Assembly (NCBI GenBank): GCA_947650005.1
Contig: CANSTU010000005.1
Coordinates: 22,947-86,946 of the forward strand
Source: an uncultured Lachnospiraceae bacterium
GTDB taxonomy: Bacteria > Bacillota > Clostridia > Lachnospirales > Lachnospiraceae
Length of the DNA: 64,000 nt
Direction: 5' to 3'
The notes below the pieces were generated by a model. The model was given only the letters and a program-made list of their open reading frames with translations. It ran no database searches and had not been told where the DNA came from. This document shows positions 13,341 to 35,297 of this stretch, piece after piece; the stretch's first letter is position 1, and each line of letters begins with the position of its first letter. The translations under genes and the position numbers were made by a program.

Positions 13341-14916
13341 ATGGAATTATTCAAACGGAAATTCTATTGGATAATTGCCTTGGGGGGGGGTATTGGCTGC
13401 ACTGACCGTTGTGATCTGCAAAGAAAATTATCATATGGATGAAATTTTCAGCTATACCTTGTCAAATTATGACGGCGCCATTCTGATGGATTTTGAAGAA
13501 GGGATCACCTATCCCAGAGGCGGTTCGGCCTGGGAAATACAGATGACGGTAAATAGGGATACCCGTTTTAATGTGGATCAGGTCTGGTTAAACCAGAAAG
13601 CGGATGTGCATCCGCCCATGTATTATTTGATTTTAAATCTGGTATGTTCCGCCTTCCCAGGAAAGTTTAGCAAATGGTTTGCAGGCAGTATCAATCTTTT
13701 TTTCTTTTTGGCATCCATGATCTATGTTTATAAATTGGCATGCTGCCTGAACCAAAGCCGTTTGACAGCGTCCTTGGTATTGGCGTATTTCGCTTTTTGT
13801 TATGGGATCATACATATGAACGGTTTTTTTCGTATGTATATCATGGCGCTATTCTGGATTATTCTGATAGTCTACCTGCAGGTTGGTTCCTTACGAAAAG
13901 AAAAATGGGACTTTAAATATTATTTATCTATGATGCTGACAGCCTGCTTTGGCGCCTTGACGCATTATTATGTCAGCATTTTTTTGGTATTGCAGAGCGC
14001 AGCATGGATCTTGGCGTTATTGCTTTTACATAAAAGAAAGGAATGTGCGATTTATATTGGAGTAATGGCGTGTGCAGGATTGCATGCAGTTTTATTATTC
14101 CCGTATATGATTTATCACATCTTTACGGGAGGAATGAGAGGAAAACAGGCTTTTGAAAATTTCGGCGGGGCAGGCGGGGATAGATTGATCACCTTTTTCA
14201 AAATCATGAATACTCAGCTGTTTGGAAACTGTTTGATTTTTATTGCCCTGCTGTTTCTTGCAGTATGTTTTCTATCTCTTTGCAGGAAGAAGAAAAAAAA
14301 GACGAGAGTCTTTTGGAAAGATGATGCCAAAAAGAAGGAATTACTGATTTGGAGCGTTGTGATAATACCGTGCATCGGATATTTTTTCCTGGTTTCCAAA
14401 ACGGCGGCATATCTTACAGACAGATATATGTACCCCATATATGGATTGCTCGTCGTGCTCGGAATAAGCGGGATATGCCAGGAGACACGGTTTTTGCTGC
14501 ATAGCCCCTGGTATGGGGGAGCGGCGGCGATATGCCTTTTATTATTACTGCTGAGGGGATACCAATATGCTGATTGGCCCTATTTATATCGAAATGACGT
14601 TTCCAGAAGCGCATTGGAGAACGCGGACGAATACAAGGAGTGTTCCTGTATTTATGTATTTGAGGAAAAATGGAAATGCACACAGTCTTTTCTGGAGATT
14701 GTAAAATATAAAGATTCCACTTTTGTCAAACCGGAACAATTGGAAAACTTTCGGAGTTTGGACAGCGCAGTTGTCGTCTATTTTCCTAGAAATGACAAGA
14801 CAGAGATTTACCTTAGAAAGTGGATGGAATGCAATCCCCAATTTACTGTCCATAAAGTGATATCGGAATTTTCGTCGTATGAAGTGGGATACCTGTTCCG
14901 GGAGAATGACGGATAG
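13341..14916 (+). CDS. GT-C membrane glycosyltransferase, frame broken at G9 (phase OFF)
   Basis: From ATG 13341, placed by the form B element, translation gives MELFKRKFYWIIALG, enters G9 (13382-13390) and stops after 18 further wrong-frame codons (TGA 13440-13442). With G8 it continues as LGGVLAALTVVICKENYHMDE, completing the first membrane segment and leading into a 524-residue polytopic protein. That protein has the GT-C hallmarks HMDEIFSYTLSN and ADVHPPMYYLILN in its first outside loop and about ten further membrane helices. An alternative TTG (13375) in the downstream frame has no ribosome site and would start inside the first helix. The sequenced allele therefore looks OFF. It would act on a polyprenyl-linked sugar outside the membrane. 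Confidence 0.82.
13382..13390 (+). repeat. G9 homopolymer, candidate phase-variation tract
   Basis: CTT followed by nine G then TATTGGC. The gene is in frame with 8 or 11 G and out of frame with 9 or 10. Confidence 0.88.
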
Positions 14917-14925
14917 GCCGCAAAA

Positions 14926-14975
14926 ACATTTGGCGGCTGTAAGGCCGCCCTGAAGACGGCAGAATGTGAGGAAAG
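14926..14975 (+). repeat. Form B hairpin-SD element (with extra arm)
   Basis: GGCCGC...GGCGGC followed by GCCGCCCTGAAGACGGC and AGAATGTGAGGAAAG before the ATG at 14976. The second half is nearly the same as the minus-strand copy at 20947. Confidence 0.72.
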
Positions 14976-16493
14976 ATGGAGAACCTCAGAAGAAAGATCT
15001 GGAATATAACGAATCTAAAAGAGACCTTCTTCCCAACCTTGGCCGAAGACGGTTCTGTCATTTTGGACTATTATGTCCGTATTATGCTTTTTTTCTATCC
15101 ACTGTTTCTGGTACAGGATCAGGTCCTGCACGTATTCACAGGCAAGTCCCTTCTATATTATGCGATAACACTCCTGTCGGCTGTTTTGTATCTTTTCTTC
15201 CTGTCCCGGAAAATGGCGGCGTATGCATCCGGGCTATGCCGAACGGAATGCTTGTTTCTTCTGGCCGCGCTGCTTTTGATGAGTAAAGCTGTGGTCAGGA
15301 TTTTCCAGGGGGACATGGGATATGAGAAGGAGATGTTCCTCTGGTGCGTGATCGGCACCTATTTTCTGCTGAAATCTTTTGGCAAGAGTCATCGCTATTA
15401 TCTGGATTTGATCCTGTTTTCCGCTTTACTGCTGCAGGCAGGGGCCATAAAATTCTTTATTTGGGGAGGGGAAAGCATTCCGGGAGTGGACAGGCTGTGC
15501 ACCTGGCCCGAGGCGGGGGCATCCTATTATCTCCTGGCGGCCTGCGCTGCCTCTGTCCGCTATTGCGGAGAGAAACGGAAGAATTGGGAGAAGTTCTATC
15601 TTCTCACGGCGGCATTCGGTTATCTCACCCTGTTTCTGCTGGGAGATATGGGAGCGATCTGCCTGGCCGTCCTGTTCCTTCTGGCAATACCGCTGGTCTA
15701 TCCCGCAACTGTCTTCCTGGTAAAAAGAAATCTGACGCTCTGTTTTGGTTTCCTTTTGATCGGAAGTAATCTGCCGCTGCTTTCGTACGGAAAGAATAGC
15801 CTGCTTACAGGCCGATACGATCTCAAATTCAGTATTTCCATCGGTTTATTCCTCTGTGCCGCAGCATTTTTCATCAGTAAATATTGGGAAAAAATACCGA
15901 GGGATCGAAATCCGGATGCCGTTATCCTGAAGCGTTTTCGACGCTGGTATGGGCGGACGATGGCAGCGGTTATCCTGCTTATGGCGGTATGCCTTTTGGA
16001 AGGGAATGGGTTCGCCGGTCTGCCGGAGCGCCTGGGGGTGGAGGCATTAAAAGCATTTGCAGCGGCCCTTGGGAAAGGGATATCCGGCGCTCAGGGCTTC
16101 CCGGCGGCTCTTTTGGAAGACTATGGGATGCTGGGATTCGGTTTGTGGATTAGCATAGCCATTCTACTTCTGGAGATGGTGAAAAAAAGATGGCGGGAGG
16201 CGGATGAGACGGCCCAAAGTTATTTGATGCTGTCCGGATTGTTTCTGGCACAGACATTTTTATACCGGATTCAGCCAATCAGCGGGCCGGCCTATGTAAT
16301 TGTACTGACCTTGGCTTTGGGAAAAGGCAGGAAAACGGAGCGGCTGCAAACAAAACGGCGGGATTTTCAGCAAACCGGAAAAATGCGTAGCGTGCATGCG
16401 CCGACGCCAGGAGAAGCAGAGAAAGGGCGCAGCAGGGGAGGTTTGGATGGAGGATTATTTGAAAAGGATCGGAAAGAGGATCCGGGAATATAG
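14976..16493 (+). CDS. Polytopic membrane protein, candidate Wzy-type polymerase
   Basis: 505 residues with about ten to twelve membrane segments, for example VRIMLFFYPLFLVQDQVL, YAITLLSAVLYLFFLSRK and a run of four close helices between residues 220 and 330, then a long hydrophilic tail. The size, position near the flippase and the large loop after the helices fit an O-antigen/capsule polymerase, but no diagnostic motif is seen and these proteins are recognised mainly by topology. The start follows a form B element with GTGAGG. The last 16 codons overlap the start of the following regulator, which suggests the tail is not under strong constraint. Confidence 0.5.
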   Translation: MENLRRKIWNITNLKETFFPTLAEDGSVILDYYVRIMLFFYPLFLVQDQVLHVFTGKSLLYYAITLLSAVLYLFFLSRKMAAYASGLCRTECLFLLAALLLMSKAVVRIFQGDMGYEKEMFLWCVIGTYFLLKSFGKSHRYYLDLILFSALLLQAGAIKFFIWGGESIPGVDRLCTWPEAGASYYLLAACAASVRYCGEKRKNWEKFYLLTAAFGYLTLFLLGDMGAICLAVLFLLAIPLVYPATVFLVKRNLTLCFGFLLIGSNLPLLSYGKNSLLTGRYDLKFSISIGLFLCAAAFFISKYWEKIPRDRNPDAVILKRFRRWYGRTMAAVILLMAVCLLEGNGFAGLPERLGVEALKAFAAALGKGISGAQGFPAALLEDYGMLGFGLWISIAILLLEMVKKRWREADETAQSYLMLSGLFLAQTFLYRIQPISGPAYVIVLTLALGKGRKTERLQTKRRDFQQTGKMRSVHAPTPGEAEKGRSRGGLDGGLFEKDRKEDPGI

Positions 16494-16806
16494 AAAAACG
16501 CAGCATATGAACCAGGAAGCGCTGGGAGAAAAGGCAGGGCTCCACCATACTTATATAGGACAGGTGGAACGCGGAGAGAAGAATCTGACGGTGGGCAGCC
16601 TGGTGCGGATTTCTGAGGCGCTGGGCGTTGCTCCGGAACAGCTTCTGTCCGAACAGGCGCAGGGGGAGCCTGCCTTCCAAAAGGCAGAAAAAGGTGCTGC
16701 GGCCGATATGCCGAAGCCGGAAAAGATAACCGGGATGGAAGAACAGGCTGCAAAAATCATTGCACAGATTATCCGGTTCTATGCAAATGAGGTCAAGGAT
16801 GAATGA
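16447..16806 (+). CDS. XRE-family HTH transcriptional regulator
   Basis: 119 residues. A Cro/CI-type helix-turn-helix fills the first 65 residues: RIREYRKTQHMNQEALGEKAG, HHTYIGQVERGEKNLTVGSL and ISEALGVAPEQLL. The short C-terminal tail is acidic/helical with no known domain. ATG 16447 is chosen because GGGGAGG lies upstream; an ATG at 16396 is in frame but has no ribosome site. It overlaps the previous gene's end by 47 bases. It could control the polysaccharide locus or the interrupted deacetylase next door; no operator was recognised. Confidence 0.85.
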   Translation: MEDYLKRIGKRIREYRKTQHMNQEALGEKAGLHHTYIGQVERGEKNLTVGSLVRISEALGVAPEQLLSEQAQGEPAFQKAEKGAAADMPKPEKITGMEEQAAKIIAQIIRFYANEVKDE

Positions 16807-16997: not shown

Positions 16998-17581
16998 CTA
17001 TTTATCCCGTATCTGCCGTCCTTCCGTGTTCATATGGTATCCGTCCCGATAGATGAGCTCGGAAACGGGTACGATCTCATATCCTTGGCTTTTCAGATTG
17101 GTGATCAGGGCGTCCAGGGCGTCCGCGGTATATTTTGCCCCGTTATGGCAGAGGATGATGGAGCCGTTGCCGAGATGCTTGTGGCTGCATACCGTGCTGA
17201 TGATGGAATCTGTACCGTAATCCTTCCAATCGAGAGAATCCACATCCCATTGAATGGAATAGTATCCGCACTGGGTAGCCGTGCGGATCACGTCGTTATC
17301 GTAGTCTCCGTAGGGGGGACGAAACAAGAACATATCATATCCGGTGAGCTGCTTTACCTTCTCATGGACCTTCATCAGTTCCTGTTCTTTGGCCTCATTG
17401 GACAGTTGGCTCATATTTTTATGATTTTCGCTGTGATTACCCAGGTCGTGGCCTGCGGCCAGGATGGATTTCACATCTTGCGGATAGCTTTCCACCCATC
17501 CGCCCGTCATAAAAAAAGTAACATGGACATTGTGCTTGGCCAGAATATCCAGGATGCGCTGGGTATCTTCATTCCCCCAGG
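16998..17581 (-). pseudogene. C-terminal fragment of an interrupted PdaB-like polysaccharide deacetylase
   Basis: Reading on the minus strand, codons from 17570 encode EDTQRILDILAKHNVHVTF, then GHDLGNHSENH (metal-binding HxxxH motif), RPPYGDYDNDVI (catalytic Arg motif) and ending INTxGRQIRDK-like sequence, about 190 residues. The first NodB motif (SFDAAWGN) is missing and the sequence upstream of the GGGGGAATGA core (17569-17581) is unrelated. That missing part lies at 23324-23589 on the same strand, and joining the two gives a clean 278-residue enzyme. The ATG at 17651 inside the element could start a short product lacking motif 1, so it would be inactive. The interruption is exact, with no decay in the coding sequence, and excision should restore the gene. 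Confidence 0.9.
17569..17581. other. Left attachment core of the interrupting element
   Basis: TCATTCCCCCAGG on the plus strand, identical to 23324-23336. Outside it (below 17569) is deacetylase coding sequence, inside it is unrelated sequence continuing as GGAATGGGCGG, which makes a short inverted repeat ATTCCCC/GGGGAAT. Confidence 0.88.
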
Positions 17582-17681
17582 GGAATGGGCGGCCGATGGA
17601 AATAAGGCAATATGACAGCGTTCTTATATCCCGTACAAGCGGCATATACATAATAAAAAGATTTGCTTAGGAGCAGTCTTC

Positions 17682-17858
17682 ATGGGAAAGACAGACCGCG
17701 GGCACCGTGTGATCAGGGATTACAAAGGCCTCTATGATACCGACGAACTGATCCGGCGTATCGTCCGTCGCCATCTTGAGGGAAACTGGGGGGAAAACAA
17801 AACGACGGCCGCTCCTGCCCTGAGGGTGGACGGCCATGCCGCAGAATACAAGGAATAA
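17682..17858 (+). CDS. 58-residue ORF overlapping the recombinase start (candidate accessory or directionality factor)
   Basis: A 58-codon frame from ATG 17682 behind TTAGGAGC, ending at TAA 17858, 23 bases into the recombinase gene. It is strongly charged (RGHRVIRDYKGLYDTDELIRR then IVRRHLEGNWGEN). It lies right inside the left end of the element, the place where recombination directionality factors or excision helpers often sit; such factors are usually small and basic. That is inference from position and size only; the ribosome site and the tight overlap support it being a real gene. Confidence 0.6.
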   Translation: MGKTDRGHRVIRDYKGLYDTDELIRRIVRRHLEGNWGENKTTAAPALRVDGHAAEYKE

Positions 17859-19431
17859 AGCGTTGAAAGAGGGTGGAAAGGCCGGATACAATACGGCGCT
17901 CTATATCAGGCTGTCCAGGGAGGACGGGGACAGGGCGGAAAGCTTGAGCGTTGCAAATCAACGCCTGTTATTGGCCGAATTCCTGGGGCGGCAGAATGAT
18001 CTGTACCTGTATGATACCTATATCGATGACGGTTATACAGGAACTGATTTCACCCGGCCCGGCTTTCAAAGGATGCTCAGGGACATAGAGGCGCGCAGGA
18101 TTCAGTGTATCGTCGTCAAGGATTTATCCAGGCTCGGAAGAAATATGCCGAAGGTTTCCTGGTATGTAAACGAATATTTTCCCCAGAAAAGAGTGCGCTT
18201 TATTGCAGTCGATGATTCGGTGGATAAACATTACGACGACATCGATATCGGTAACGATATGATGGTCGATGTCAGGAATATGTTTAACGGGTTCTATCCG
18301 AAGGATATCTCCAAGAAGGTTCGTTCCACACTCCGTTCCAAGCAGGAGGGCGGACAGTTCATCGGCGCCTTTGCCTGCTTTGGCTACAGGAAATCGGAAG
18401 GCGATCATAACAGGCTGGCGGTGGACGAATATGCTGCCGGTATCGTTAGGCGCATTTTTGAACTGTATTTGAGCGGGGTTGGGCAGAATACCATTGCTAA
18501 AATACTGAACGAAGAGGAGATTCCCTGCCCTTCCGAGTATAAGAAAAAATGCGGCCTGAATTACCATAATGGGAACCGGCTTGCTTCCACGGCATACTGG
18601 ACGTATTCCACGGTACGCAGAATCCTGCAAAACGAAATCTATGTGGGAAATATGGTTCAGAATAGGAGCTTTCGACAAATATGCGGGAAGAATGCCGTGA
18701 GCCTTCCCAGAGAGAAATGGATCGTGGTGGAAAATACCCATGAACCCATCGTCAACAGAGAAGACTGGGATAGGGTACAGAGCCTGCTGGGGAGCAATGC
18801 GAGACAGACCGGCCTTTCCAATCATATGCATGCATTCGCAGGATTACTCAGATGTGCAGACTGCGGGCGCGCCATGGTGAAGATCCGACGAAAGGGTTCT
18901 ACGGTTTTTAACTGTGGAAGCTATAACCGTTATGGCAGGAGATTTTGCAGTATCCACAGCGTGACGGAACGGGAGTTGGAATGTATTGTTGTAGACGACC
19001 TGAATCGGCTCCTCCAATCGGCAGGGAATCTCGGACGGATCATAGAGGAGGAAAGGATAAAACAGGAAAGGAAAGGCGCCGTATTGAGGGAAGATGCCTC
19101 CCGATACCGGGCAGAGATCGACCGGCTGATTAGAAAGAAGGAACAGGCTTACGAGGATTATTCGGATCAGACTCTTACAAAGGAAGAGTATATAAAATAT
19201 AGAGAGCGATATGAAAACAGGATCTGCGAACTTCATTCCAAAATCGAGATGGCTGGGCAGGCTTCAAAGAAAGGGGACACGCAGAAAAATCCGTGGATCG
19301 ATAGAATACTGCGTCAGGAACGCCTGGAACATCTGGACAGGGAAACAGCGGTAGAAATGCTCTCCATGATTTATATCCATGAGGATGGGACGATAAAAAT
19401 CGTCTACAACTTTTCCGCGCCAGACGCATGA
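17836..19431 (+). CDS. Large serine recombinase (site-specific integrase/excisionase)
   Basis: 531 residues. The resolvase/invertase catalytic domain comes first (YIRLSREDGD with the nucleophile Ser, GYTGTDFTRPGFQRML, and KDLSRLGRN with the catalytic Arg), then a recombinase domain (FGYRKSEGDHNRLAVDEYAAG), a zinc ribbon (CADCG...CGSYNRYGRRFC) at about residues 336-371 and a long coiled-coil C-terminal region. This is the TnpX/phiC31-type large serine integrase, which makes DNA breaks with two-base overhangs at att sites. It lies at one end of an element bounded by a shared 13-bp core. It should catalyse its integration and, with a partner, excision. The RBS GAGGGTGGA precedes the ATG. Confidence 0.95.
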   Translation: MPQNTRNKALKEGGKAGYNTALYIRLSREDGDRAESLSVANQRLLLAEFLGRQNDLYLYDTYIDDGYTGTDFTRPGFQRMLRDIEARRIQCIVVKDLSRLGRNMPKVSWYVNEYFPQKRVRFIAVDDSVDKHYDDIDIGNDMMVDVRNMFNGFYPKDISKKVRSTLRSKQEGGQFIGAFACFGYRKSEGDHNRLAVDEYAAGIVRRIFELYLSGVGQNTIAKILNEEEIPCPSEYKKKCGLNYHNGNRLASTAYWTYSTVRRILQNEIYVGNMVQNRSFRQICGKNAVSLPREKWIVVENTHEPIVNREDWDRVQSLLGSNARQTGLSNHMHAFAGLLRCADCGRAMVKIRRKGSTVFNCGSYNRYGRRFCSIHSVTERELECIVVDDLNRLLQSAGNLGRIIEEERIKQERKGAVLREDASRYRAEIDRLIRKKEQAYEDYSDQTLTKEEYIKYRERYENRICELHSKIEMAGQASKKGDTQKNPWIDRILRQERLEHLDRETAVEMLSMIYIHEDGTIKIVYNFSAPDA

Positions 19432-19454
19432 TCGGCGTATTCATGCGTCTGGCG
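19418..19454 (+). terminator. Hairpin at the end of the recombinase gene
   Basis: A perfect 14-bp inverted repeat (CGCCAGACGCATGA and its complement) with a 9-base loop surrounds the stop codon at 19429-19431. No T run follows, so it may be a Rho-dependent, RNA-stability or recombinase-related structure rather than a simple terminator. The 160 bases to the MATE stop hold a 36-codon open frame (19479-19589) I could not support. Confidence 0.45.
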
Positions 19455-19611
19455 TGACGCTTTGTCGATCGGATCCATATGTTGTTAAGAGGCATCCAAG
19501 AGGGAGACACATCAAACGATCCAGGAGGTGAGAAGAGCGCGCTACGGCCGGCCGAAGAAGGGCAGATGCACGGCGGGGCCGAAAATTAGAAAAGGAATTT
19601 TCAAATCCAAA

Positions 19612-20946
19612 TCAGGCTAGCTCCGCTAGTTCTTTCCATTTGCCACCCCTATATCTGATAAGGAAACAGACGGTTCGACAGATCCAGTCCAGAACCATGG
19701 CGATCCACACGCCGATGGCTCCGTATCCCAGGGTTACGCCGATGAGATAACTGAACCCGATCCGGAAGAGGAACATGGAGGCAATGGACACCACCATGGT
19801 GTAACGTACGTCATTGCAGGCCCGGAGCATGTTGGGGAAAGTAAAGGAGAGAGGCCACAGAAAGCAGGCGCATCCGTTGTGAATACAGACCAACGTCCGC
19901 GCCAGCTGCGTCGTCTCCGGGCTCAGTCCGTACAGGCTCAGGATCCAATCCAGACTGAAAAAGAGGATTATGTTGAAAAGGATCGTGGGAATGTACGTGG
20001 CGAGCAGGAGCTTTTTGGTATAAATGCGAATCTGTTTCTCATCCCTGGCGCCCACGCATTGCCCGATCACGGTGATCATGGCCAGGTTAATGGCGCTTCC
20101 AATGAGGACGCCCACGCTGTCCAGATTGTTGGCCACGCCGTTGGCCGCGATCTGTACCGTCCCAAAACCGGAAATGATGCTGACCACCAGGACGCGTCCC
20201 AGCTGGAAAATGCCGTTTTCCACGCCGCTCGGAATGCCGATAGAGAGAATTCGCCGGATGATCACGAAGTCAAGACGGAAGGGCTCCTTGAGAAAACAGA
20301 GTTCCAGCGAGGGATTGCGCAGGAGAAAATAAAGAAGGATACTGCCAACTGCCCTGGAAATCAGGGAAGGGATCGCCACCCCGGCGGCTCCCATATGGAG
20401 GCCGAAGATACAGATGGCATTGCCCGCCACATTGATCAGATTGATGAGAATGGAAACTTTGAGTGTAATCTGCGAATTTCCCATGGAGCGGAAAAGCGCC
20501 GCACAGGCATTATATACGGCCAAAAAGGGAAAGGAGAGGGCGGAAATGGTCAGATAGATCAGCGCGTTTTCCATTACATCCGCTTCAATGCCTCCGAAAA
20601 AAAGACGCAGCAGAGGTTTTCTGGCCAATATCACGATAGCTCCGATGGCCACGCCGGAAAAGATTACGGTATATAGAAGCTGTTTAGCCGATCTCCTCGC
20701 GTCTTCTTTTCTCTTTGCGCCCAGGAATTGGGAAGTCACCACAGCGCCTCCCGTGGCGAGAGCGGCCATGATGTTGAACATTAATATATTGATCATATCC
20801 ACCAAAGACACGCCGGATACGGCGGCTTCCCCCACAGAAGAGATCATCATGGTATCGGCCATGCCCACTGTAATGGCCAGCGCCTGTTCAAAGATGAGTG
20901 GAATAATCAGCTTGCGCAGATCCTTTCCTGAAAATAAGGGCTCCAT
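19612..20946 (-). CDS. MATE-family efflux transporter (element cargo)
   Basis: 444 residues, about twelve membrane segments with the MATE signatures LIIPLIFEQALAITVGMADT, RSMGNSQITLKV and an internal two-fold repeat (VAIPSLISRAVGS against the first half). MATE proteins export cationic drugs or metabolites using an ion gradient. The start is 20946, not the upstream ATG 21009, because a form B hairpin-SD element (minus strand, 20947-20976) ends four bases before it. It is inside the recombinase element and follows a second MATE gene on the same strand, a two-gene unit. The substrate is unknown. Confidence 0.9.
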   Translation of the reverse strand: MEPLFSGKDLRKLIIPLIFEQALAITVGMADTMMISSVGEAAVSGVSLVDMINILMFNIMAALATGGAVVTSQFLGAKRKEDARRSAKQLLYTVIFSGVAIGAIVILARKPLLRLFFGGIEADVMENALIYLTISALSFPFLAVYNACAALFRSMGNSQITLKVSILINLINVAGNAICIFGLHMGAAGVAIPSLISRAVGSILLYFLLRNPSLELCFLKEPFRLDFVIIRRILSIGIPSGVENGIFQLGRVLVVSIISGFGTVQIAANGVANNLDSVGVLIGSAINLAMITVIGQCVGARDEKQIRIYTKKLLLATYIPTILFNIILFFSLDWILSLYGLSPETTQLARTLVCIHNGCACFLWPLSFTFPNMLRACNDVRYTMVVSIASMFLFRIGFSYLIGVTLGYGAIGVWIAMVLDWICRTVCFLIRYRGGKWKELAELA

Positions 20947-20978
20947 TTTTCCTCTTTTCTGCCGCTTCAGGGCGGCTG
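20947..20978 (-). repeat. Form B hairpin-SD element, minus strand, inside the mobile element
   Basis: On the minus strand GCCGCCCTGAAGCGGC is followed by AGAAAAGAGGAAAA and the MATE start at 20946. Its presence inside the element shows the repeats spread with or after the element. Confidence 0.7.
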
Positions 20979-21070
20979 TGGGATAGCAGATGCATAATCG
21001 TCTGCGCAACTTTCTCCGAAGGACTCGCTGATTCCTGTTACGCCGCCGCGAAGGGCAAGCAATAGGAAAG

Positions 21071-22462
21071 TTAGATTGAAACGGATTCCGCGGCCTTTTG
21101 TTCTGCCTCCGACATGCCCCGCAGCTCCTTCACTACCATGATGACAATGGCCTGTGTGAGCACAAAGGTGAGGGCGTCTGCAACCGGCTGGGCCAGCTGA
21201 AGCCCCAATATGCCCAGTGCCTTTGGAAGAATCAGGATCGCAGGAATAAAGAACAGCCCCTGTTTGCTGACGGCGGTGAGGGTGGCTCGAAAACTGTAGC
21301 CGATGGACTGGGTGAGCATATTTCCGATGATGGAATAGGCCTGAAAGGGAAGAAGGCAGCATTGCATTTTCAGTGCCAGCGCGCCGATACGGATGACCTG
21401 AGCGTCTTCCTTTCGGAAGATGCCCATGATCGGTGTGGCAATGGCGAACATGACTACGCCCATGATGAGCAGAAAGACCAGAGCCACCCGGCGGCAGAAG
21501 AAATATGCCTCCAGCACCCGATCATATCGCTTTGCCCCGAAGTTAAATCCGCACACGGGCTGGAAACCCTGGCCAAAGCCGATCAGCGCCGATTGGATAA
21601 ACATCATGATTCTGGTCACGATGGACATGGCAGCGACGGCCGCATCCCCAAAACCGGACGAAGCCACATTGAGGAGGACGGAAGCCGCGCTGGCCAGTCC
21701 CTGACGCCCCAGGGTAGGCATACCGGCGGAGAGAATTTCCTTATAGACCCAGCCTTGAAAAGTGAAATGACGAGGAGTGGGCTTTAATACGTTTCCTGAA
21801 CGGAGCACCAGTACCAATAAAATGACAAAACTCACGAACTGACTGAAAATCGTGGCGATCGCTGCGCCTGAAATTCCCATCTGGAAACCGAAAATCAGGA
21901 TAGGATCCAAAATGACATTCAGAACGCCTCCGGCGGTAATGCCGATCATGGAAAGCGCGGCATTACCCTGGGAACGCAGATGGTTGTTGAACACAAAGGA
22001 AACCGTCATGTAGGGAGCTGCAATCAAAATATATTGTCCATAATCCTTCGCATAAGGGGCGATGGTATCTGTGGCGCCGAGCGCCCGCACCAGGGATTCG
22101 ATATTGGTAATGCCCAGTACCGCCAGTAGAAGACCGCAGGCAAAAGCGGTATAGACCGATGTGGAACAGGCTCTCTGCGCCCGATCCTGCTGTCTGGCTC
22201 CCAGCATCCGGGACATATAATTGCCGCTTCCCATACCCAGGGTAAAACCGATGGCCTGGATCATGGCCATCAGGGAAAAGTTCACGCCTACCGCCCCGGA
22301 AGCGCTGGTGCTCAGTTGGCTGACAAAGAAAGTATCGGCCATATTATAAATTGAGGTGATCAACATACTGATGATGGTAGGTATGGCCAGCCTGGGAATC
22401 AGCCGGTTGATGGCCGTTTCTGTCATCACTTTGTATTTCTCTTCGTAACTCATTGCTTTCAT
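21071..22462 (-). CDS. MATE-family efflux transporter (element cargo, second copy)
   Basis: 463 residues with the MATE layout (RLIPRLAIPTIISMLITSIY, NMADTFFVSQLST, FNNHLRSQGNAALSM, an ILDPILIFGFQMGISGAAIA loop). It belongs to the NorM/DinF-like branch and is clearly not the same as its neighbour; the two share only the family pattern. Start 22462 has GGAGAG upstream; an upstream ATG at 22531 is in frame. Together the pair is the main cargo of the element, which suggests a benefit from efflux. The stop lies 125 bases before the start of the next MATE gene. Confidence 0.88.
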   Translation of the reverse strand: MKAMSYEEKYKVMTETAINRLIPRLAIPTIISMLITSIYNMADTFFVSQLSTSASGAVGVNFSLMAMIQAIGFTLGMGSGNYMSRMLGARQQDRAQRACSTSVYTAFACGLLLAVLGITNIESLVRALGATDTIAPYAKDYGQYILIAAPYMTVSFVFNNHLRSQGNAALSMIGITAGGVLNVILDPILIFGFQMGISGAAIATIFSQFVSFVILLVLVLRSGNVLKPTPRHFTFQGWVYKEILSAGMPTLGRQGLASAASVLLNVASSGFGDAAVAAMSIVTRIMMFIQSALIGFGQGFQPVCGFNFGAKRYDRVLEAYFFCRRVALVFLLIMGVVMFAIATPIMGIFRKEDAQVIRIGALALKMQCCLLPFQAYSIIGNMLTQSIGYSFRATLTAVSKQGLFFIPAILILPKALGILGLQLAQPVADALTFVLTQAIVIMVVKELRGMSEAEQKAAESVSI

Positions 22463-22651
22463 CCTGCGTTCTCTCCGTTTCTTTTTGCTCTTTTCTTCTA
22501 TTGTAAATCCAAACGAGAAAAATAGGAACACGTATCTTTAGAAAAACTTTAGATACTTTTCGTATAAAATGGAAAATAACTCAGGTGGTTCAACTGCAGG
22601 GAGATAAGTTTCAGACTCTTTATTGGAGACAGTATCGTAGGAGATCACCCT

Positions 22652-22731
22652 GATTTGTACGCGCGCCAAAGCGGGCGGATAGGAGTACACTGGTTTTTAT
22701 GCTCGCTAGAGCGGGCAGATAGGAGCTAAAA
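22652..22731 (+). repeat. Two form A hairpin-SD elements in a row
   Basis: GCGCGCCAAAGCGGGCGGATAGGAG then GCTCGCTAGAGCGGGC with AGATAGGAG directly before ATG 22732. Both lie in the MATE-to-lipoprotein intergenic region inside the mobile element. Confidence 0.72.
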
Positions 22732-23298
22732 ATGAAGGCAAGATGTAGGATAGCGACGGGCTTAATGGCGCTTATGATGGCAGCATCAGGCTGTGGGAAC
22801 GGACAGGAGGCAAAAGAACAAAATGCGATGCTGTCCCAACCGGCGGAGGAAAATGGGGACAGCGGGCAGCAAAGCGGGAAAGAAGGGGAAGACAGGAACG
22901 CATCGGAAAGTCAGGAGCCGGGGGAGGAAGAGCGCAGTGATGGGAATACGGAGGCCTCTTCGCCGGAAAGTATCGGCAATAACGAACAGGATACCGAGAT
23001 AATAGGAGGAAAAGTTAGGAGTATCGCCCAGGACAGCTTTGTAATCAGTAGAGTCCTAATGGACGGTTCTTACGTGATCATGCCGGAGGCAGGCAGCCCG
23101 GAAGAAGAATTGGTGACGATTCGGTGTACAGATTCTACAACATATGAGCGCTGGACGATCCAGGGCGGCGGAGCGGGCATTGATAAAGAGGCGGCCGCGT
23201 TTGCCGATATTCTGGAGGGCGGCGGATTGGAAGCATCGGGATATTTCGACGGGGAAGAGTTTGTGGCGCAGACGGTATTCATTGAGATATATGAATAA
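22732..23298 (+). CDS. Lipoprotein of unknown function (element cargo)
   Basis: 188 residues. The N terminus (MKARCRIATGLMALMMAASG followed by Cys) is a lipoprotein signal with an AASGC lipobox. A 60-residue acidic, Ser/Glu-rich linker follows, then a globular domain of about 100 residues (GGKVRSIAQDSFVISRVL, TIRCTDSTTYERWTI). No family is recognised. It would be anchored to the outer face of the membrane. It is the last gene before the right attachment core (23324), 25 bases away. The form A element upstream gives a strong ribosome site. Function is unknown; it may help or regulate the neighbouring pumps. Confidence 0.6.
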   Translation: MKARCRIATGLMALMMAASGCGNGQEAKEQNAMLSQPAEENGDSGQQSGKEGEDRNASESQEPGEEERSDGNTEASSPESIGNNEQDTEIIGGKVRSIAQDSFVISRVLMDGSYVIMPEAGSPEEELVTIRCTDSTTYERWTIQGGGAGIDKEAAAFADILEGGGLEASGYFDGEEFVAQTVFIEIYE

Positions 23299-23323
23299 AT
23301 AGTTTCAGACATCCATCGAGAAG

Positions 23324-23336
23324 TCATTCCCCCAGG
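23324..23336. other. Right attachment core of the interrupting element
   Basis: TCATTCCCCCAGG identical to 17569-17581. To its right is the deacetylase N-terminal fragment (codon AAT of WGN at 23326-23328); to its left is unrelated sequence that adds six codons (DFSMDV) and a stop. Confidence 0.88.
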
Positions 23337-23589
23337 CCGCATCAAAACTGAGGGCCACTTTTTTTTCATTCGTCTCCACGCAGTAGATGGGAAGCTCCCG
23401 CCCGTTGATGGTGCTGGAGACGGAGATGGCCTCGGGTACGAAGGTGGTGACGCATTTCACAAAGGCTGCGACCCCGAGGAGGAAGAGGGCTGATTTAATG
23501 AGTTGGATACGGAGGGCTGATTGGAAATTTTCCGATTCCCGGAACCGTTTTATCCGGCATTGTATGAGATAGGCAAAATCTTTTAACAT
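23324..23589 (-). pseudogene. N-terminal fragment of the interrupted PdaB-like deacetylase
   Basis: On the minus strand from ATG 23589: a basic start, a membrane helix (SALFLLGVAAFVKCVTTFV), a linker and KKVALSFDAAWGN, the first NodB motif of clostridial polysaccharide deacetylases, where the frame leaves the family sequence at the core and ends. The missing rest is at 16998-17570. The rejoined protein would have a membrane anchor, then NodB motifs 1 (81-88), 2 (HSENH, 134-138) and 3 (RPPYG, 172-176). The PdaB-like type is a sporulation enzyme that modifies cortex or germ-cell-wall muramic residues. A forespore-type promoter may lie upstream. Rejoining is exact to the base. Confidence 0.88.
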
Positions 23590-24739: not shown

Positions 24740-24796
24740 TTGCAATGCATATGTTATATGTGATAAATTGACATAAATATAGAAATTACAATGTGT
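24740..24796 (+). promoter_or_regulatory. Candidate cas operon promoter region
   Basis: The stretch 24600-24826 is far more AT-rich than its surroundings. TTGCAA (24740) is followed 17 bases later by ATAAAT (24763); a second TTGACA (24768-24773) lacks a good -10. One of these should drive cas3. A T9 run lies upstream at about 24700. No operator was recognised. Confidence 0.4.
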
Positions 24797-24826
24797 TCAG
24801 GATGTCGAATATTAAGGATGAAAAGA

Positions 24827-27232
24827 ATGGAAGAAAGGGATAGGGAGATGGATCAGGAATATGCTTCCCACTACCGCCCCCAAGACGAAACCTGGCAGTC
24901 CAATCAGGAACATGAAGCATGCGTGGCAAAGCTGGCAGAGGAGTATTGCAGAATTCCGTTGCTGAAGAAAACTGCACGATTGATCGGTATGCATCACGAC
25001 GATGGAAAATATACGGAAGAATGGCAGGATTACTTCCACACATGTGTGCAGGAAGATGCTTTCTATGGGGAAAAGGTGGATCACTCCACGCTGGGCGGTT
25101 TGATCATTGACCGGTATGCGCCGGGCACCCGTTTTTCTGAGATGGCTCAGGCGGCGATTTATATGCATCATGGTCTGGCAGACTGTGTTTCCCTCAAGGA
25201 TGGCAGCAGTCTGTGTGAAAAGCGCAGACTAAAGTACATCCGGGAGGAGATTGATAGGACGGCGGAGACGGCAGCAAGGCAGTTTCCGGACGCAGATATG
25301 GCGGAGCATTGTTCGGAGGCAAAACGGGATATCAATAGAATGACCTCTTGTCTGAAAGAACTGGGAAGAAATGGGGAGGAAAAATATCTCTATGGCCATC
25401 CGGACTTTTATCTGGGCCTGTGCGAAAGGATGCTTCTTTCCTGTCTGATGGACGCGGATTGGAGAAATACGGCTGATTTTATGGCCGCACGTCCTACGGA
25501 TACCGGCCCATCCGATCAGGAAATGCAGGAAATATGGAAGAAGGGGATCCGAAACCTGGAAAGCAGGTTGACAGGCCTGGGCGGGGAAGGCAGGCTGAAC
25601 GATTGCAGGAAGAGGATCTCAGAGCAATGCCGCATGGAGGCTTATGCGGAAAGCAGTCTCTATCGTCTGGCAGTCCCGACGGGAGCGGGAAAAACCTTGA
25701 GCGGCCTGCGATTCGCCCTGTATCGGGCGCAGGAGCGGTCGGCGAGGCATATTTTCTATATAGCCCCTTATAAAAGTATTTTGGAACAGAACGCGAAGGA
25801 GATCAGAAAAGCGTTGGACATGCCGGATGCGGTGTTGGAGCATCATGGCGACGTGGTTCAGGAGGGGAAGGAAGCGCTTTGGCGCTATGAAAGGCTGATC
25901 GAAAACTGGGATGAATCCCCTGTGATTGTGACCACTGCGGTACAATTTTTGAATACATTGTTTAAGGAGAAAAGAAATAACATACGCCGCTTCCACAGCC
26001 TGTGTGACAGCGTCATACTGGTGGATGAGGTGCAGGCCCTGCCGGTAAAGGTGATCGGCCTGTTCAACCTGGCAGTGAATTTTCTTACAAAGGCGGGAAA
26101 TACGACGGTGGTGCTGTGCACAGCAACACAGCCGCTATTTTCCGACATCAGGAAGAATAGGATGCTGCCTCCTAAAGAAATGATGGAAGGAGCGGCTTCC
26201 TTGGAGGAAGCGTTCCGGCGGGTGGAATATCACGATTGCACGGCGGAAACGGCGCAGGGATTTTCTGCGGAGGAAGCGGCTGCGTTTGTACGGGAAACGG
26301 CTAGGCAGTTTGACCGGATTCTCGTGATCATGAATACGAAGACAGCGGTCAAGGAGGTGTACGACCGGCTGCAGGGGAGCGTGGAGGGACAGCTTTATCA
26401 TCTCAGCACATGGATGTGTGCGGCGCATCGAAGCGACAGGATTGAGGAAATCAAGAAAGCGCTTTTGGAAGAAAAAAAGGTGATCTGCATCAGCAGCCAG
26501 CTTGTAGAAGCGGGGGTGGATTTTTCATTCCAATGCGTGATCCGTTCCCTGGCGGGGCTGGACAACCTCATTCAGGCAGCGGGAAGGTGTAATCGGAACG
26601 CTTTTTGGGACCGGGGGCATGTATTCCTGATCCGAATGTCCCGGGAGGCGGAAAACGTATCTTCATTGCCGGATATCAGAAAGGCTCAGGAGGCTATGGA
26701 ACGCTTGCTGCGCGCTTTTCACCGAGAGCCTGGGCAATTCGCATCCCGGCTCGATTCGGCGAAAGCGATCGAAACCTATTACAGCTTTTATTTTTATGAA
26801 CGTCAGGAAGAGATGGCGTACGGGATGGAGGCGGAAGGGGTTAGGACGAATCTGGTAGATCTTTTATCCTGCAACCCGGAATTTCGGGACCGGGAGGGAA
26901 AACGGAAGCTGCAACAGGCGTTTCGGAGCGCAGGAGAGGCATTTTCCATGATCGATGAGACGGGAGGAAGGGAGGTCGTGGTTCCCTATGGCGATGCGGA
27001 GAAGCTTGTGGAACGATGGCAGAGGGAGAAGGACTGGGCGGAGAAGAGAAGGATAGTGCGGATGCTGCAACGTTATATCGTCTGCCTGCCGGAAACTTTG
27101 GTAAGGAAAATGGAAAGCGGCGCCGTCTATGGAGTGGGAGAAGGGCAGATTCTGTTCCTGAATAAAAGGTATTATGACGATGGTACAGGAGTGAAGATGG
27201 AACCGGCGCAGATGCCGTTTTTGTACAGCTGA
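24827..27232 (+). CDS. cas3: CRISPR-associated helicase/nuclease Cas3 (type I-C)
   Basis: About 801 residues from ATG 24827, which has AAGGA eight bases upstream; ATG 24848 and GTG-side starts to 24791 are alternatives. An N-terminal HD nuclease carries HHDDGKY (residues 56-62) and HSTLGGLI. The SF2 helicase follows: PTGAGKTLSGL (Walker A, about residue 285), ILVDEVQALP (DEVQ box, about 397, as is usual in Cas3), LCTATQP and QAAGRCNR (motif VI). Cas3 is recruited by Cascade to cut and unwind target DNA. First gene of a complete I-C operon; a short gap of 23 bases leads to cas5. Confidence 0.93.
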   Translation: MEERDREMDQEYASHYRPQDETWQSNQEHEACVAKLAEEYCRIPLLKKTARLIGMHHDDGKYTEEWQDYFHTCVQEDAFYGEKVDHSTLGGLIIDRYAPGTRFSEMAQAAIYMHHGLADCVSLKDGSSLCEKRRLKYIREEIDRTAETAARQFPDADMAEHCSEAKRDINRMTSCLKELGRNGEEKYLYGHPDFYLGLCERMLLSCLMDADWRNTADFMAARPTDTGPSDQEMQEIWKKGIRNLESRLTGLGGEGRLNDCRKRISEQCRMEAYAESSLYRLAVPTGAGKTLSGLRFALYRAQERSARHIFYIAPYKSILEQNAKEIRKALDMPDAVLEHHGDVVQEGKEALWRYERLIENWDESPVIVTTAVQFLNTLFKEKRNNIRRFHSLCDSVILVDEVQALPVKVIGLFNLAVNFLTKAGNTTVVLCTATQPLFSDIRKNRMLPPKEMMEGAASLEEAFRRVEYHDCTAETAQGFSAEEAAAFVRETARQFDRILVIMNTKTAVKEVYDRLQGSVEGQLYHLSTWMCAAHRSDRIEEIKKALLEEKKVICISSQLVEAGVDFSFQCVIRSLAGLDNLIQAAGRCNRNAFWDRGHVFLIRMSREAENVSSLPDIRKAQEAMERLLRAFHREPGQFASRLDSAKAIETYYSFYFYERQEEMAYGMEAEGVRTNLVDLLSCNPEFRDREGKRKLQQAFRSAGEAFSMIDETGGREVVVPYGDAEKLVERWQREKDWAEKRRIVRMLQRYIVCLPETLVRKMESGAVYGVGEGQILFLNKRYYDDGTGVKMEPAQMPFLYS

Positions 27233-27255
27233 TTCGCAGGAAGGAGGAAAACGGG

Positions 27256-28005
27256 GTGCAGGCGAAATATAGAAATACGGTGGAATTTCAGGTGAGCGGC
27301 GATTATGCGTTGTTTTCAGATCCGGTCACCCGGGTGGGCGGAGAAAAATTCTCTTATCAGATTCCGACCTATGAGGCCGTCAAGGGTATTCTGCAAAGCG
27401 TTTACTGGAAACCCACCTTTATCTGGATTATCGATGAAATGAGGGTGATGAAGCGGATCCAGACGGAGACAAAGGCAATGCGTCCCATCGGATACAACGG
27501 GGGAAATGAATTGTCCTATTATACGTATCTGAAGGATGTGAGCTATCAGGTGCGGGCCCATTTTGAGTGGAATGAAAACCGGCCGGAGCTGGTCGGAGAC
27601 AGGAATGAGAATAAGCATCATAATATTGCAAAGCGCATGATTGAACGCGGCGGAAGAAGGGACATTTTCCTGGGGACGCGGGAATGCCAGGGGTATGTGG
27701 AACCCTGTGATTTTGCCTCCGGAACGGGGGAATACAGCCCAAAACCGGGGGAGGCTTCCATGGAACTGGCTTTTGGTTTTATGTACCATGGGATCACCTA
27801 TGCGGACGAAGCTGTTTTGGAAGAAGACAGAGGAAAAATGACGGTGCGGTTCTGGCATCCGGTCATGAGGGACGGAGTGGTTACGTTCCTGCGTCCGGAA
27901 GAATGCACGGAAAAACGGCACATTCATGCAATGGATAAGAAGGAATTTCCGGATAAGAAATTCAGCGGGCACGGGGAATTTGCAGAAGAAGGGGATGCCG
28001 GATGA
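27256..28005 (+). CDS. cas5: Cas5c, crRNA-processing Cascade subunit
   Basis: 249 residues from GTG 27256 behind AAGGAGG. It has the Cas5 RAMP fold (NTVEFQVSGDYALFSDPVTR, EKFSYQIPTYEAVKGILQSVYWKPTF). In type I-C there is no Cas6, and Cas5c cleaves the repeat hairpin of the pre-crRNA to make crRNA and stays bound to the 5' handle. The C-terminal tail GHGEFAEEGDAG is acidic. It overlaps the next gene by four bases (ATGA), so the pair is coupled. Confidence 0.93.
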   Translation: MQAKYRNTVEFQVSGDYALFSDPVTRVGGEKFSYQIPTYEAVKGILQSVYWKPTFIWIIDEMRVMKRIQTETKAMRPIGYNGGNELSYYTYLKDVSYQVRAHFEWNENRPELVGDRNENKHHNIAKRMIERGGRRDIFLGTRECQGYVEPCDFASGTGEYSPKPGEASMELAFGFMYHGITYADEAVLEEDRGKMTVRFWHPVMRDGVVTFLRPEECTEKRHIHAMDKKEFPDKKFSGHGEFAEEGDAG

Positions 28006-30059
28006 ACTGGATAGCGGAATTGTATGATCTTTATGAAAAGAATAAAAGCCAGGCGGGACGCCAGACGGAGGAAGGGACAATACTCTTGCCTCTCTACCAT
28101 ACCACTGTGGCCGCACAGGTTACGGTGGAGCTTGACGGGGAAGGGAATTTCCTGGGGGCGGAGATTGTACCAGAGGAGGATAAGCTTACCCTTATTCCGG
28201 TGACAGAGGAATCGGCCAGCAGGACGGCCAACCCCACGCCCCATCCCTTATGCGATAACCTGGAATACCTGGCGGGGGATTATGAAAGCTATGCCACGGG
28301 AAAGAAATGCGGTGAGAAGCATGCGCTATATATGGAAAAGCTGGAAAAGTGGGTATATTCCCCGTTCAGCCACCCCAAGGCGGAGGCGGTTTACCGATAT
28401 CTTTTAAATAATTCATTGATGGGAGACCTGCTGGCGTGCGGGGTCCTTCAGGCAGAGGAGGACGGCCGCATTACGGAAAAAAGAAAGCTTCAGATCGTTC
28501 CGCAGACAAAGGCGTTCGTGAGATTTCGTATTGAAGACGGCCGCATGATGGACCGGTCGATTTTGACGGATGAGAGCGGGGCATATACGGACAAATGCTG
28601 GAAAGACGGGACGCTCCAGAAAAGCTATATCGATTACTGCGCTGCCGGTCAGGAACAGGCCGGTCTGTCCTATTTGACGGGAAGGAGGATGCCGGTTTCC
28701 TATCTGCAGCCGAAAAAAATTCGGAACGAAGGCGACGGCGCAAAGCTGATTTCCTCCAATGACAGCGAAAACTTCACCTATAAGGGACGGTTTGCCACCA
28801 AAGAAGAAGCCTTTGCCATCGGATACGAGGATTCCCAAAAGGTACATAACGCATTAAAGTGGATCCTCAGGAAACAGGGCGGAAATTATGACTCTCTGTA
28901 TTTCGTCACTTGGGAGTCGGATTTGCATGACATGCCGGGCTGGCCGGACGGTTCTGATAGGATCCTTGAAAAGGGGAAAGACAGGAATCGGATAGACGGA
29001 CAGGCTGGAGTGGAGGAGCGCTCAGACAGAGGCGACGAGTCGGATTTCGATGAGGAGATAGATCTGGACGACGAGGTGGATGTGGATGAGGAGGGCGTTC
29101 CTCAAACTGGAGCTGCGCAGGCAGCGAGGCTGCGTCGGGCGATCAGGGGCTATGGGAAATTTTTATCCCCTTCTTCCAGGACGGTGATTATGGCGTTCGA
29201 CGCGGCGACCACCGGGCGTCTGGCCATAATGGAATATAAAGATTACGCATCTTCCAGATATCTGCAGGCGCTGGAAAAATGGCAGGAGCGTTGTTTTTGG
29301 AGACACCAGAAAGTTGGTAAGCAAAAGGGGCGATATACCTATTATGGTATGGTGGGAGTGAAGGACGCGGCAGAACTCCTGTACGGAACAGAGGAAAAGG
29401 GAAAAGGCTATTTTTCCATGAAGGGAAAGGAAGAACGCTATAAGTACGTGGCACAACGGTGGATGCCCTGCATTCTGGAGGGCAGGGCGGTGCCGGAGGA
29501 TATGGTGAACCTGGCGGTCCGACGCGCGTCTTCCCCGGTATCCTTTGACAGCCGTTTCCTGTGGGAGAGGATTTTAACCTTGGCCTGTTCCCTTGTGAAG
29601 CAGCAGTACGAAAAGAGATTTAAGGAGGTATGGACGATGGCGTTGGACGAAACCTGCACGAAGAGAGACTATCTGTATGGCCGCCTGCTGGCGGTGGCGG
29701 ACCGGATCGAGTACCGAACCTATAGCAAGGAATACGCCAAAGGAAAGAAGGCGGATGAAGAAAAAAAGGATAAGGAGAGCGGGCGGGAAACCAATGCAAA
29801 GAGATATATGAGCGCCTTTTCCCAGCATCCATTCCGTACCTGGAAGATCATTGAAGAGAAGCTGGAACCCTATCTGGTTAGATTGGATGCGGGAGAACGG
29901 ATCGCCTATCAGAACCTGGCGAATGAAGTATATGAGAAGTTTACCATGGAAGATTATGAAAACGATGCGCCTCTGAACGGCCTGTATCTGCTTGGATTCC
30001 ATAATCAGGCTTTTGCACTGCAAAAGGGAAAGAAGAAGGAGACGGAGGAAGAGGAGTGA
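28002..30059 (+). CDS. cas8c: Cas8c, large subunit of type I-C Cascade
   Basis: 685 residues, longer than the roughly 570-620 common in this family. The family body is recognisable (MNWIAELYDLYEKNK, LEYLAGDYE, QKVHNALKWILRKQGGNYDS, MAFDAATTGRLAIMEY). The extra length is partly an acidic segment at about residues 340-366 (ESDFDEEIDLDDEVDVDEE), between two family blocks. The large subunit recognises the PAM and recruits Cas3. It starts by ATGA overlap with cas5. The acidic insert is unusual; see findings. Followed by a form A and a form B element. Confidence 0.9.
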   Translation: MNWIAELYDLYEKNKSQAGRQTEEGTILLPLYHTTVAAQVTVELDGEGNFLGAEIVPEEDKLTLIPVTEESASRTANPTPHPLCDNLEYLAGDYESYATGKKCGEKHALYMEKLEKWVYSPFSHPKAEAVYRYLLNNSLMGDLLACGVLQAEEDGRITEKRKLQIVPQTKAFVRFRIEDGRMMDRSILTDESGAYTDKCWKDGTLQKSYIDYCAAGQEQAGLSYLTGRRMPVSYLQPKKIRNEGDGAKLISSNDSENFTYKGRFATKEEAFAIGYEDSQKVHNALKWILRKQGGNYDSLYFVTWESDLHDMPGWPDGSDRILEKGKDRNRIDGQAGVEERSDRGDESDFDEEIDLDDEVDVDEEGVPQTGAAQAARLRRAIRGYGKFLSPSSRTVIMAFDAATTGRLAIMEYKDYASSRYLQALEKWQERCFWRHQKVGKQKGRYTYYGMVGVKDAAELLYGTEEKGKGYFSMKGKEERYKYVAQRWMPCILEGRAVPEDMVNLAVRRASSPVSFDSRFLWERILTLACSLVKQQYEKRFKEVWTMALDETCTKRDYLYGRLLAVADRIEYRTYSKEYAKGKKADEEKKDKESGRETNAKRYMSAFSQHPFRTWKIIEEKLEPYLVRLDAGERIAYQNLANEVYEKFTMEDYENDAPLNGLYLLGFHNQAFALQKGKKKETEEEE

Positions 30060-30078
30060 TCCGGCAGGACGGCGGGGT

Positions 30079-30163
30079 GTTTATGCTGTCAGCTAAAGCG
30101 GGCGGAAAGGTACATTAAACCTGGGATCGAGAGCCGCCATTCGGCGGCAGAATGAGAGGAAAA
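30079..30163 (+). repeat. Form A and form B hairpin-SD elements in the cas operon
   Basis: A form A copy (GCTGTCAGCTAAAGCGGGC, GGAAAGG) followed by a form B copy (GCCGCC-ATTC-GGCGGC, AGAATGAGAGGAAAA) immediately before ATG 30164. This is an internal operon site, so the elements are not limited to promoters. Confidence 0.75.
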
Positions 30164-31021
30164 ATGAGCGAACTAAAGGGAAAAATTGATTTTGTAGCGT
30201 TGATCTGTGCATCCAATGCCAACCCCAACGGGGATCCTCTGAACGGAAACCGGCCGAGGGAAAATTTTGAGGGATATGGAGAAATTTCTGACGTATGCAT
30301 CAAACGCAAGATCAGAAACCGCTGGCAGGACATGGGGCAGAGGATTTTCGTACAGTCCGATGACAGAGCGGATGATGGATTCAAAAGCCTGAAAGACAGG
30401 GCGGACGGCTGTGCCCCGCTGAAAGAGGAAATAGAAAAGAGGAAAAACGCCGACCGGGATAAGTGTGCCGAGCTGGCGTGCCGGGAATGGCTGGACGTGC
30501 GCAGTTTTGGGCAGGTATTCGCTTTCAAAGGGGTGGAAGTATCGGTCGGAATCCGTGGCCCTGTATCCATCCATCAGGCGGTAAGTGTAGAGCCCGTGGA
30601 TATTATCAGCATGCAGATTACCAAAAGCGTGAACAGCGAGTCAGGAAAAGAGGGCAAGGCATCGGATACCATGGGGACAAAGCACAGGGTCGGCTTCGGT
30701 CTGTATGTTTTGAAGGGAAGCGTGAACGTGCAGCTGGCGGAGAAAACCGGATTTTCACAGGAGGACGCGCAGCTTCTGAAAGAAGCGCTGAAAACCCTGT
30801 TTGAAAACGATGCTTCCTCCGCGCGGCCGGAAGGAAGTATGGAGGTATGCCAATTATACTGGTGGCAGCATGAAGAAAAGATGCCCTCTGTTTCCTCCGC
30901 AAAAGTGCATCGGAGCGTGAAAGTTACACCCAGGACGGACAGGCCCACGTCTTTTGCGGATTATGTAGTAAGCTATGAGGATCCGGGGTGTGTGGAGCCG
31001 GAGGTATTCGACCTTGTATGA
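30164..31021 (+). CDS. cas7: Cas7c, Cascade backbone subunit
   Basis: 285 residues from ATG 30164 (the form B element gives its ribosome site; an ATG at 30152 lies inside the element). The RAMP backbone is clear: GKIDFVALICASNANPNGDP, RENFEGYGEISDVCIKRKIRNR, ITKSVNSESGKEGKASDTMG and a VKVTPRTDRPTSFADYVVS ending. Six copies normally bind the crRNA spacer. The last 8 bases overlap the cas4 start. Confidence 0.93.
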   Translation: MSELKGKIDFVALICASNANPNGDPLNGNRPRENFEGYGEISDVCIKRKIRNRWQDMGQRIFVQSDDRADDGFKSLKDRADGCAPLKEEIEKRKNADRDKCAELACREWLDVRSFGQVFAFKGVEVSVGIRGPVSIHQAVSVEPVDIISMQITKSVNSESGKEGKASDTMGTKHRVGFGLYVLKGSVNVQLAEKTGFSQEDAQLLKEALKTLFENDASSARPEGSMEVCQLYWWQHEEKMPSVSSAKVHRSVKVTPRTDRPTSFADYVVSYEDPGCVEPEVFDLV

Positions 31022-31673: not shown

Positions 31674-31710
31674 CCGGCGAAAAAGGATGGTGTGCAGACC
31701 GGAGAGGAAT

Positions 31711-33061: not shown

Positions 33062-33243
33062 GTAAAGTAGAGGTGCGGACTGGATGTGAACATGAAAGCC
33101 TTAGAAGGTTCGCACCTGCAAATGATTTTGCATTGTGCACAGATAAGCTATATTCTGATAAAACGCTCCGTTATAAAAAGTGGAATTGTCAAATTGTTAC
33201 AAAATTTAAAACGGAAAGGATAGGGATGTAGGTTGTCTTTGCG
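33062..33243 (+). promoter_or_regulatory. CRISPR leader
   Basis: AT-rich sequence between cas2 and the first repeat. It holds an inverted repeat AGGTGCG (33070-33076) and CGCACCT (33111-33117), and a TATAAA at 33172. New spacers are expected to join at this end. No strong -35 was seen. Confidence 0.7.
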
Positions 33244-34956: not shown

Positions 34957-35297
34957 GTCGGAAAAGTTACCTATACAGGCGCTTGCACAAGCCTTTCTAT
35001 ATTTAATGCAGAAAAGGGATAAAAGATCTCGCCATGTCCTTCTGTGATTTTTTACCAGCAGATAGGAGGTGAGAAATGCATTTGTGAAAGGGGAGTACCT
35101 TGTATTCCATTTTGGCTCATTTGCTATCAGAATCATAAACGCAGACATGGAGCAAATGATTATAAAATAGAACAAAAGTCCATGCAGTATGATTCCACAA
35201 CAAACTCAGAAATCGTTCGAAATTCTGGTTTACGTGTAGCATGCTTCCTGTTTTTCTAGCCTTTTTCTTCCGCATATGATAAATTAAAAAGTGTATA
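34957..35297. other. Non-coding stretch after the array
   Basis: About 340 bases. It contains an AGGAGGTGAGAA ribosome-like site before ATG 35079, but that frame stops after three codons (Met-His-Leu), and a 71-codon frame at 35044 has no family resemblance. No promoter, RNA gene or repeat was recognised. Confidence 0.6.

Follow-up and report, generated by a model that had tools for sequence, protein, structure and literature searches.

In the window analyzed here, a 64,000-nucleotide stretch of DNA from an uncultured Lachnospiraceae bacterium, a gene for a PdaB-like deacetylase is split at 17579/23334 by 5,755 bp of intervening DNA carrying a large serine recombinase (LSR). The element interrupts the gene at the TG of a conserved Trp codon, and we predict that a precise attL x attR excision restores the gene, likely during sporulation, a reading to which we assign a probability of about 0.6. 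What is new is the target gene and its role as a hotspot for elements intervening in sporulation genes, the principle itself being already known. Within a family of gut bacteria, many elements that do not resemble each other have struck a single nucleotide of one gene, which in some cases is struck twice; if excision is timed, these splits would amount to a natural replicate experiment on how development tames mobile DNA. About a dozen recombinases with inferred sites also become available.

The split gene and the element within it

Both gene parts lie on the minus strand. The 5' part, pdaN (23335..23589), comprises 85 codons up to FDAA and shows a hydrophobic N-terminal stretch by eye, and the 3' part, pdaC (16998..17579), comprises 193 codons from the Trp and matches the Pfam family Polysacc_deac_1. 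The initial annotation had placed the two halves at the same positions and had claimed that their joining yields one uninterrupted frame of 278 residues; indeed, the in-phase join gives 85 + 193 = 278 codons, as many as in the unsplit gene of the closest species (genome G002), to which pdaN and pdaC are 94% and 99% identical at the amino acid level. Among NCBIfam models, PdaB (TIGR02764) matches the whole gene best, and since the G002 protein scores 217.0 bits, below the curated cut-off of 237.4, we call the gene PdaB-like. The annotation had also credited the joined frame with all three NodB motifs: the deacetylase domain is found in the C half, but motif 1 of the joined gene reads SFDAAWG, unlike the textbook NodB motif 1, TFDDG. 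The product is likely a spore-wall enzyme, and neither half would be expected to work alone. An intact paralogue, which might have made the split irrelevant, did not emerge: at 97.7% completeness, the window's genome yielded no close second copy, its other NodB matches being about 30% identical.

On the minus strand, attL (23313..23354) consists of the B arm, the TG crossover (23334-23333), and the element arm P', and attR (17558..17599) consists of the element arm P, the TG crossover (17579-17578), and the B' arm. The 13-bp core first noticed at both junctions (17569-17581 and 23324-23336) is present in two copies in the window, with no third, and the crossover can be narrowed further, to the TG with which the Trp codon of FDAA-W-GNE begins. 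In one other split genome (G423), TG is the sole sequence common to the two junctions. For the 14 split genomes with both ends, we rebuilt attP for each element by putting its two ends together and tried seven centres. All 14 attP sites are palindromic about TG; no other centre does as well in 13 of them, and in G121 TG shares first place. An element's own arms match at 11 to 19 of 22 bases (mean of 15.1; 15 in the window element), compared to a mean of 10.1 of 22, and up to 19, for arms of different elements and to 4 to 8 matches for the attB arms; the weakest own pairs, those of G121 (11) and G028 (12), fall inside the between-element spread. An inverted repeat around a dinucleotide is a known layout of serine integrase sites, as stated for gin in the excerpt of PMC5595907 considered here. 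An assembly artefact was rejected on the basis of the attP symmetry and because 13 further genomes show both ends of an insert at this very site.

The four larger ORFs of the element encode the recombinase, two MATE proteins, and one protein without a family in Pfam or NCBIfam. The LSR (17836..19431, plus strand, 531 aa) contains the Pfam domains Resolvase, Recombinase, and Zn_ribbon_recom, so that the element does carry its own large serine recombinase, as first annotated. The efflux-type transporters MATE1 (19612..21009) and MATE2 (21071..22531), both assigned by Pfam/NCBIfam, lie on the minus strand and are followed by a 188-aa protein (22732..23298, plus strand) predicted by eye to be a lipoprotein. 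Searches with Pfam and NCBIfam revealed no phage structural or conjugation genes among these four ORFs. Just before the recombinase, a small ORF of 58 aa (17682..17858, plus strand), with no match in Pfam, is a candidate for a directionality factor that would set the time of excision, which is a guess; short ORFs like it also precede several other recombinases of the group. No clear mother-cell promoter was found before pdaN or before the small ORF, and a CATA-type box kept upstream of pdaN across the genus could be assigned to no sigma factor. Were transcription of the gene to take place in the forespore, excision in the mother cell would be of no help to it.

Unlike elements at the same codon

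Relatives of the recombinase (E <= 1e-100) are found in 30 of the 397 family genomes, and named genomes scanned with the recombinase yielded six loci, one of which (L052, 68% identical) has a pdaC half starting at the same codon. A further 31 genomes, chosen because they contain a recombinase relative (the former set plus three from the named-genome scan), were searched with the whole gene; in 14 it is split at residues 80-89, and the other 17 show no split there. Including the window, this codon is thus interrupted in 15 genomes, of which 14 show both ends and G434 shows one, and the 14 further genomes contain unlike DNA at this Trp codon. At least 13 of the 161 gene-bearing family genomes are split here (ten C pieces and the double splits of G065, G405, and G121). 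The halves are on different contigs in G208, G096, and G405. A supposed split in G050 was rejected, the gene continuing past the site up to the contig end.

The inserts measure 1.5 kb (G263), 2.4 kb (G144), 3.3 kb (G068), 5.0 kb (G065), 5.8 kb (window), 7.3 kb (G028), 11.0 kb (G121), 12.1 kb (G302), 12.7 kb (G423), 84 kb (G061), and 92 kb (G383). A recombinase lies at most 2.4 kb from a gene half in 12 of the 14 split genomes, the exceptions being G263, with a single gene for a glutamate-cysteine ligase, and G144, with a ThrE pair and a regulator, neither of which has a recombinase inside the insert. Pieces of the G383 insert encode a ParA-type ATPase and a second ATPase that matches AAA_10 modestly and TraG under the cut-off, which gives only a hint of a conjugative nature. 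The pieces read of the 84-kb insert of G061 (L132-L134) mostly resemble, by eye, sugar-use genes. The recombinases associated with this site do not form one clade, as the 12 labelled rows need 5 label changes in a tree of 32 of the 34 sequences (G096 and G134 left out; G434, G144, and G263 unlabelled).

Four genes are split twice, with the second split at the V-D codons of QWDVDSLDW in G065 and G405 and near RPPYGD in G121 and G144; recombinases of another type (RQSIDKKDS) lie near the V-D site in G065, G059, and G052. More tentatively, and with somewhat less confidence than we place in excision itself, we propose that the PdaB-like gene is a general docking gene of Lachnospiraceae: elements as different as cassettes with one gene and 84-92 kb islands would settle at this TG, or at one of two other sites, because the sporulating cell must rebuild the gene, and the host programme would cut all of them from the mother cell but leave them in the spore. 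If this were true, a doubly split gene would yield its protein only after two different recombinases had acted.

Several loci depart from the simple pattern. In G048 (L115, 1367-12229), a fragment ending at the V-D site, a near-full copy (8840-9502), and a C-terminal fragment stand in a row, as if the element carried its own spare gene copy. G036 (L122, 1524-1754 and 8683-9414) has a whole gene and an additional C-terminal piece 7 kb off, and the element may have replaced the 3' end of the gene. An odd gene piece covering residues 106-277 is found in G311, and G302 contains a whole second copy (G302:C32:60058-60807, L126; 65% identical to the G002 gene), its other copy being split.

Whole genes in relatives, selection, and sporulation

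The C half was matched in 57 of 61 genomes at E <= 0.001, paralogues included. Comparison with relatives, suggested at the outset as a check, revealed a whole gene with one site in 11 of the 12 other same-genus genomes (C half with 84-99% amino acid identity, open frame of 284-365 codons); all 11 genes read through the split site, and the twelfth genome, G006, has paralogue-level matches only. Counting the gene or a piece of it at E <= 1e-42, 161 of the 397 Lachnospiraceae-family genomes possess it. SpoIVA is encoded in 154 of these 161 genomes and in 102 of the 236 genomes without the gene (Fisher p of 7e-31, uncorrected for relatedness), and also in the window's own genome; this distribution across genome sequences supports the view that the gene would go with sporulation.

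Both halves are open up to the junction in 14 of the 14 split genomes with both ends, and the C part counted from the Trp spans 192-203 codons in the ten single splits and 94-119 codons to the second split in the other four. G096 and G405, which belong to the same genus and are both split, with recombinases 92% identical, differ by a dN of 0.055 and a dS of 0.668 in pdaN and by a dN of 0.034 and a dS of 0.802 in pdaC. In four chosen whole-gene pairs from six genomes of the window's genus, the N parts show a dN of 0.015-0.093 and a dS of 0.256-0.558, and the C parts show a dN of 0.027-0.048 and a dS of 0.598-0.991. Purifying selection thus acts on the G096/G405 halves with about the strength seen in whole genes and, together with the open frames, this points to regular repair by excision. 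The recombinases of the pair have a dS of 0.534, and the split is consistent with one insertion inherited by both genomes; as no alignment is obtained for the stretch separating recombinase and gene, the two may instead hold two insertions of related elements. Every split other than that of G096/G405 could be recent.

Predicted excision, known systems, and alternative readings

Based on the anatomy of the sites, integration would proceed by attP x attB recombination at TG. From the skin/SPbeta model and the selection on the halves, we propose that attL x attR recombination would then excise the element and restore the gene, possibly under the control of the small ORF before the recombinase; following the same model, excision would be limited to the mother cell, and the spore would inherit the split gene. 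Excision is supported by the whole genes in 11 of 12 relatives, the palindromic attP, the open halves, the selection acting on them, and the association with SpoIVA. Counted against it are the lack of a joined junction in the window's assembly, where a minority form is not expected to appear, the lack of a clear mother-cell promoter, the rearrangement relative to G002, the two inserts of 14 without recombinase (G263 and G144), the 17 unsplit genomes among the 31 picked, the whole second copy in G302, the weakest own arm pairs lying within the between-element spread, and the possible recency of splits outside G096/G405.

According to excerpts of the literature, from which the following comparisons are drawn, the named targets of programmed gene rebuilding in sporulation are sigK, spsM, spoVFB, spoVR, gerE, and yabG. 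With the intervening elements of such genes (skin, SPbeta, vfbin, gin, and yin), the window element shares the splitting of a host coding sequence, an empty site in relatives, a site-specific recombinase, inverted-repeat att sites, and a frame restored on joining. The element gin, in gerE of Bacillus cereus ATCC10987, likewise lacks phage genes and has a serine recombinase, an inverted repeat around a dinucleotide, a short core, and a frame rebuilt by the join, its target being a sporulation gene, as the PdaB-like gene probably is (PMC5595907). However, gin occupies another gene in another family, measures 28.6 kb compared to 5.8 kb, requires GirX whereas the window has a candidate partner only, and has a demonstrated excision whereas that of the window element is predicted (PMC5595907). 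SPbeta, in spsM of Bacillus subtilis, also combines a serine recombinase, SprA, with a 58-aa partner, SprB, which sets the time of excision, and a host sporulation gene is rebuilt (PMC4191935). Our small ORF, also of 58 aa, is likened to SprB by size; in contrast to the window element, SPbeta is a phage, and sprB has a mother-cell promoter, no clear one being found in the window (PMC4191935). The recombinase-bearing skin and yin split the sporulation genes sigK and yabG, much as the window element splits a likely one, but the target differs, and in the present case a single nucleotide position serves dissimilar elements in several genera (PMC10747680). Diverse LSRs are known to meet at a shared site within a conserved coding sequence, as here, and the excerpt of that survey does not deal with the rebuilding of genes in sporulation (PMC10083194). 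The word "deacetylase" is absent from the main text of the surveys of LSRs and gut elements PMC10083194 and PMC6907783, and among the open-literature titles and abstract starts listed, none describes the gene as an element target.

Such convergence also bears on an alternative, which we consider unlikely but worth weighing, that an ordinary integrative element sits in a conserved landing gene, which is knocked out, or back only by chance exit, with no link to sporulation. Landing genes are shared by many serine recombinase lineages elsewhere, with 33 LSRs at one site of a prolyl isomerase gene (PMC10083194, excerpt), and the whole second copy of G302 and the near-full copy between two gene fragments of G048 also speak for this alternative. 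However, the purifying selection on both G096/G405 halves, within the whole-gene range, the frames open in 14 of 14 genomes, and the lack of a close second copy in the window's genome argue against it.

A local rearrangement, a still more doubtful possibility, would have the lipoprotein, MATE2, and MATE1 genes resident upstream as in G002, a smaller recombinase element landing in the gene, and the 5' part of the gene then moving over them. The order in G002 is PuuD, lipoprotein, MATE2, MATE1, whole gene, with no recombinase relative at the locus, and that in the window is PuuD, pdaN, lipoprotein, MATE2, MATE1, recombinase, pdaC; since G002 has the same genes beside a whole gene without a recombinase, the locus has been rearranged. 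The initial description of the MATE pumps as cargo must be qualified: the insertion did not simply bring them in, as in G002 the block adjoins an unsplit gene with no recombinase. Between the two genomes, dS is 0.57-0.71 for PuuD, MATE1, MATE2, and cas5, 0.44/0.72 for the gene halves, and 1.32 for the lipoprotein, so that the MATE block was probably at the locus in the common ancestor. Against such a rearrangement, a single palindromic attP results when the outer ends of the 5.8-kb piece are put together, as expected of one integrated unit, the 147 bp between PuuD and pdaN in the window have no match in the G002 stretch, and at seven other same-genus loci, only a 29%-identical MATE (G005) is found near the gene. 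G002 may itself be the derived form: because of the single attP and the unmatched 147 bp, we favour an ancestor split as in the window, from which the G002 gene would have been repaired, its cargo being left upstream. Neither MATE1 nor the lipoprotein lies close to the MATE2 relatives of G302, G222, and G133, which are 74-87% identical.

On the far side of pdaC (13375-16806), the window encodes two membrane proteins, recognized by eye, and an HTH protein; these genes have no match in the G002 stretch, so that synteny breaks near the pdaC end. On the other side, positions 24791-32742 encode Cas3, Cas5, Csd1, Cas7, Cas4, and Cas1, a CRISPR-Cas set that we take to be of type I-C and of which the Cas3, Cas5, and Csd1 genes are common to the window and G002, followed by a 26-copy repeat array (33240-34970).
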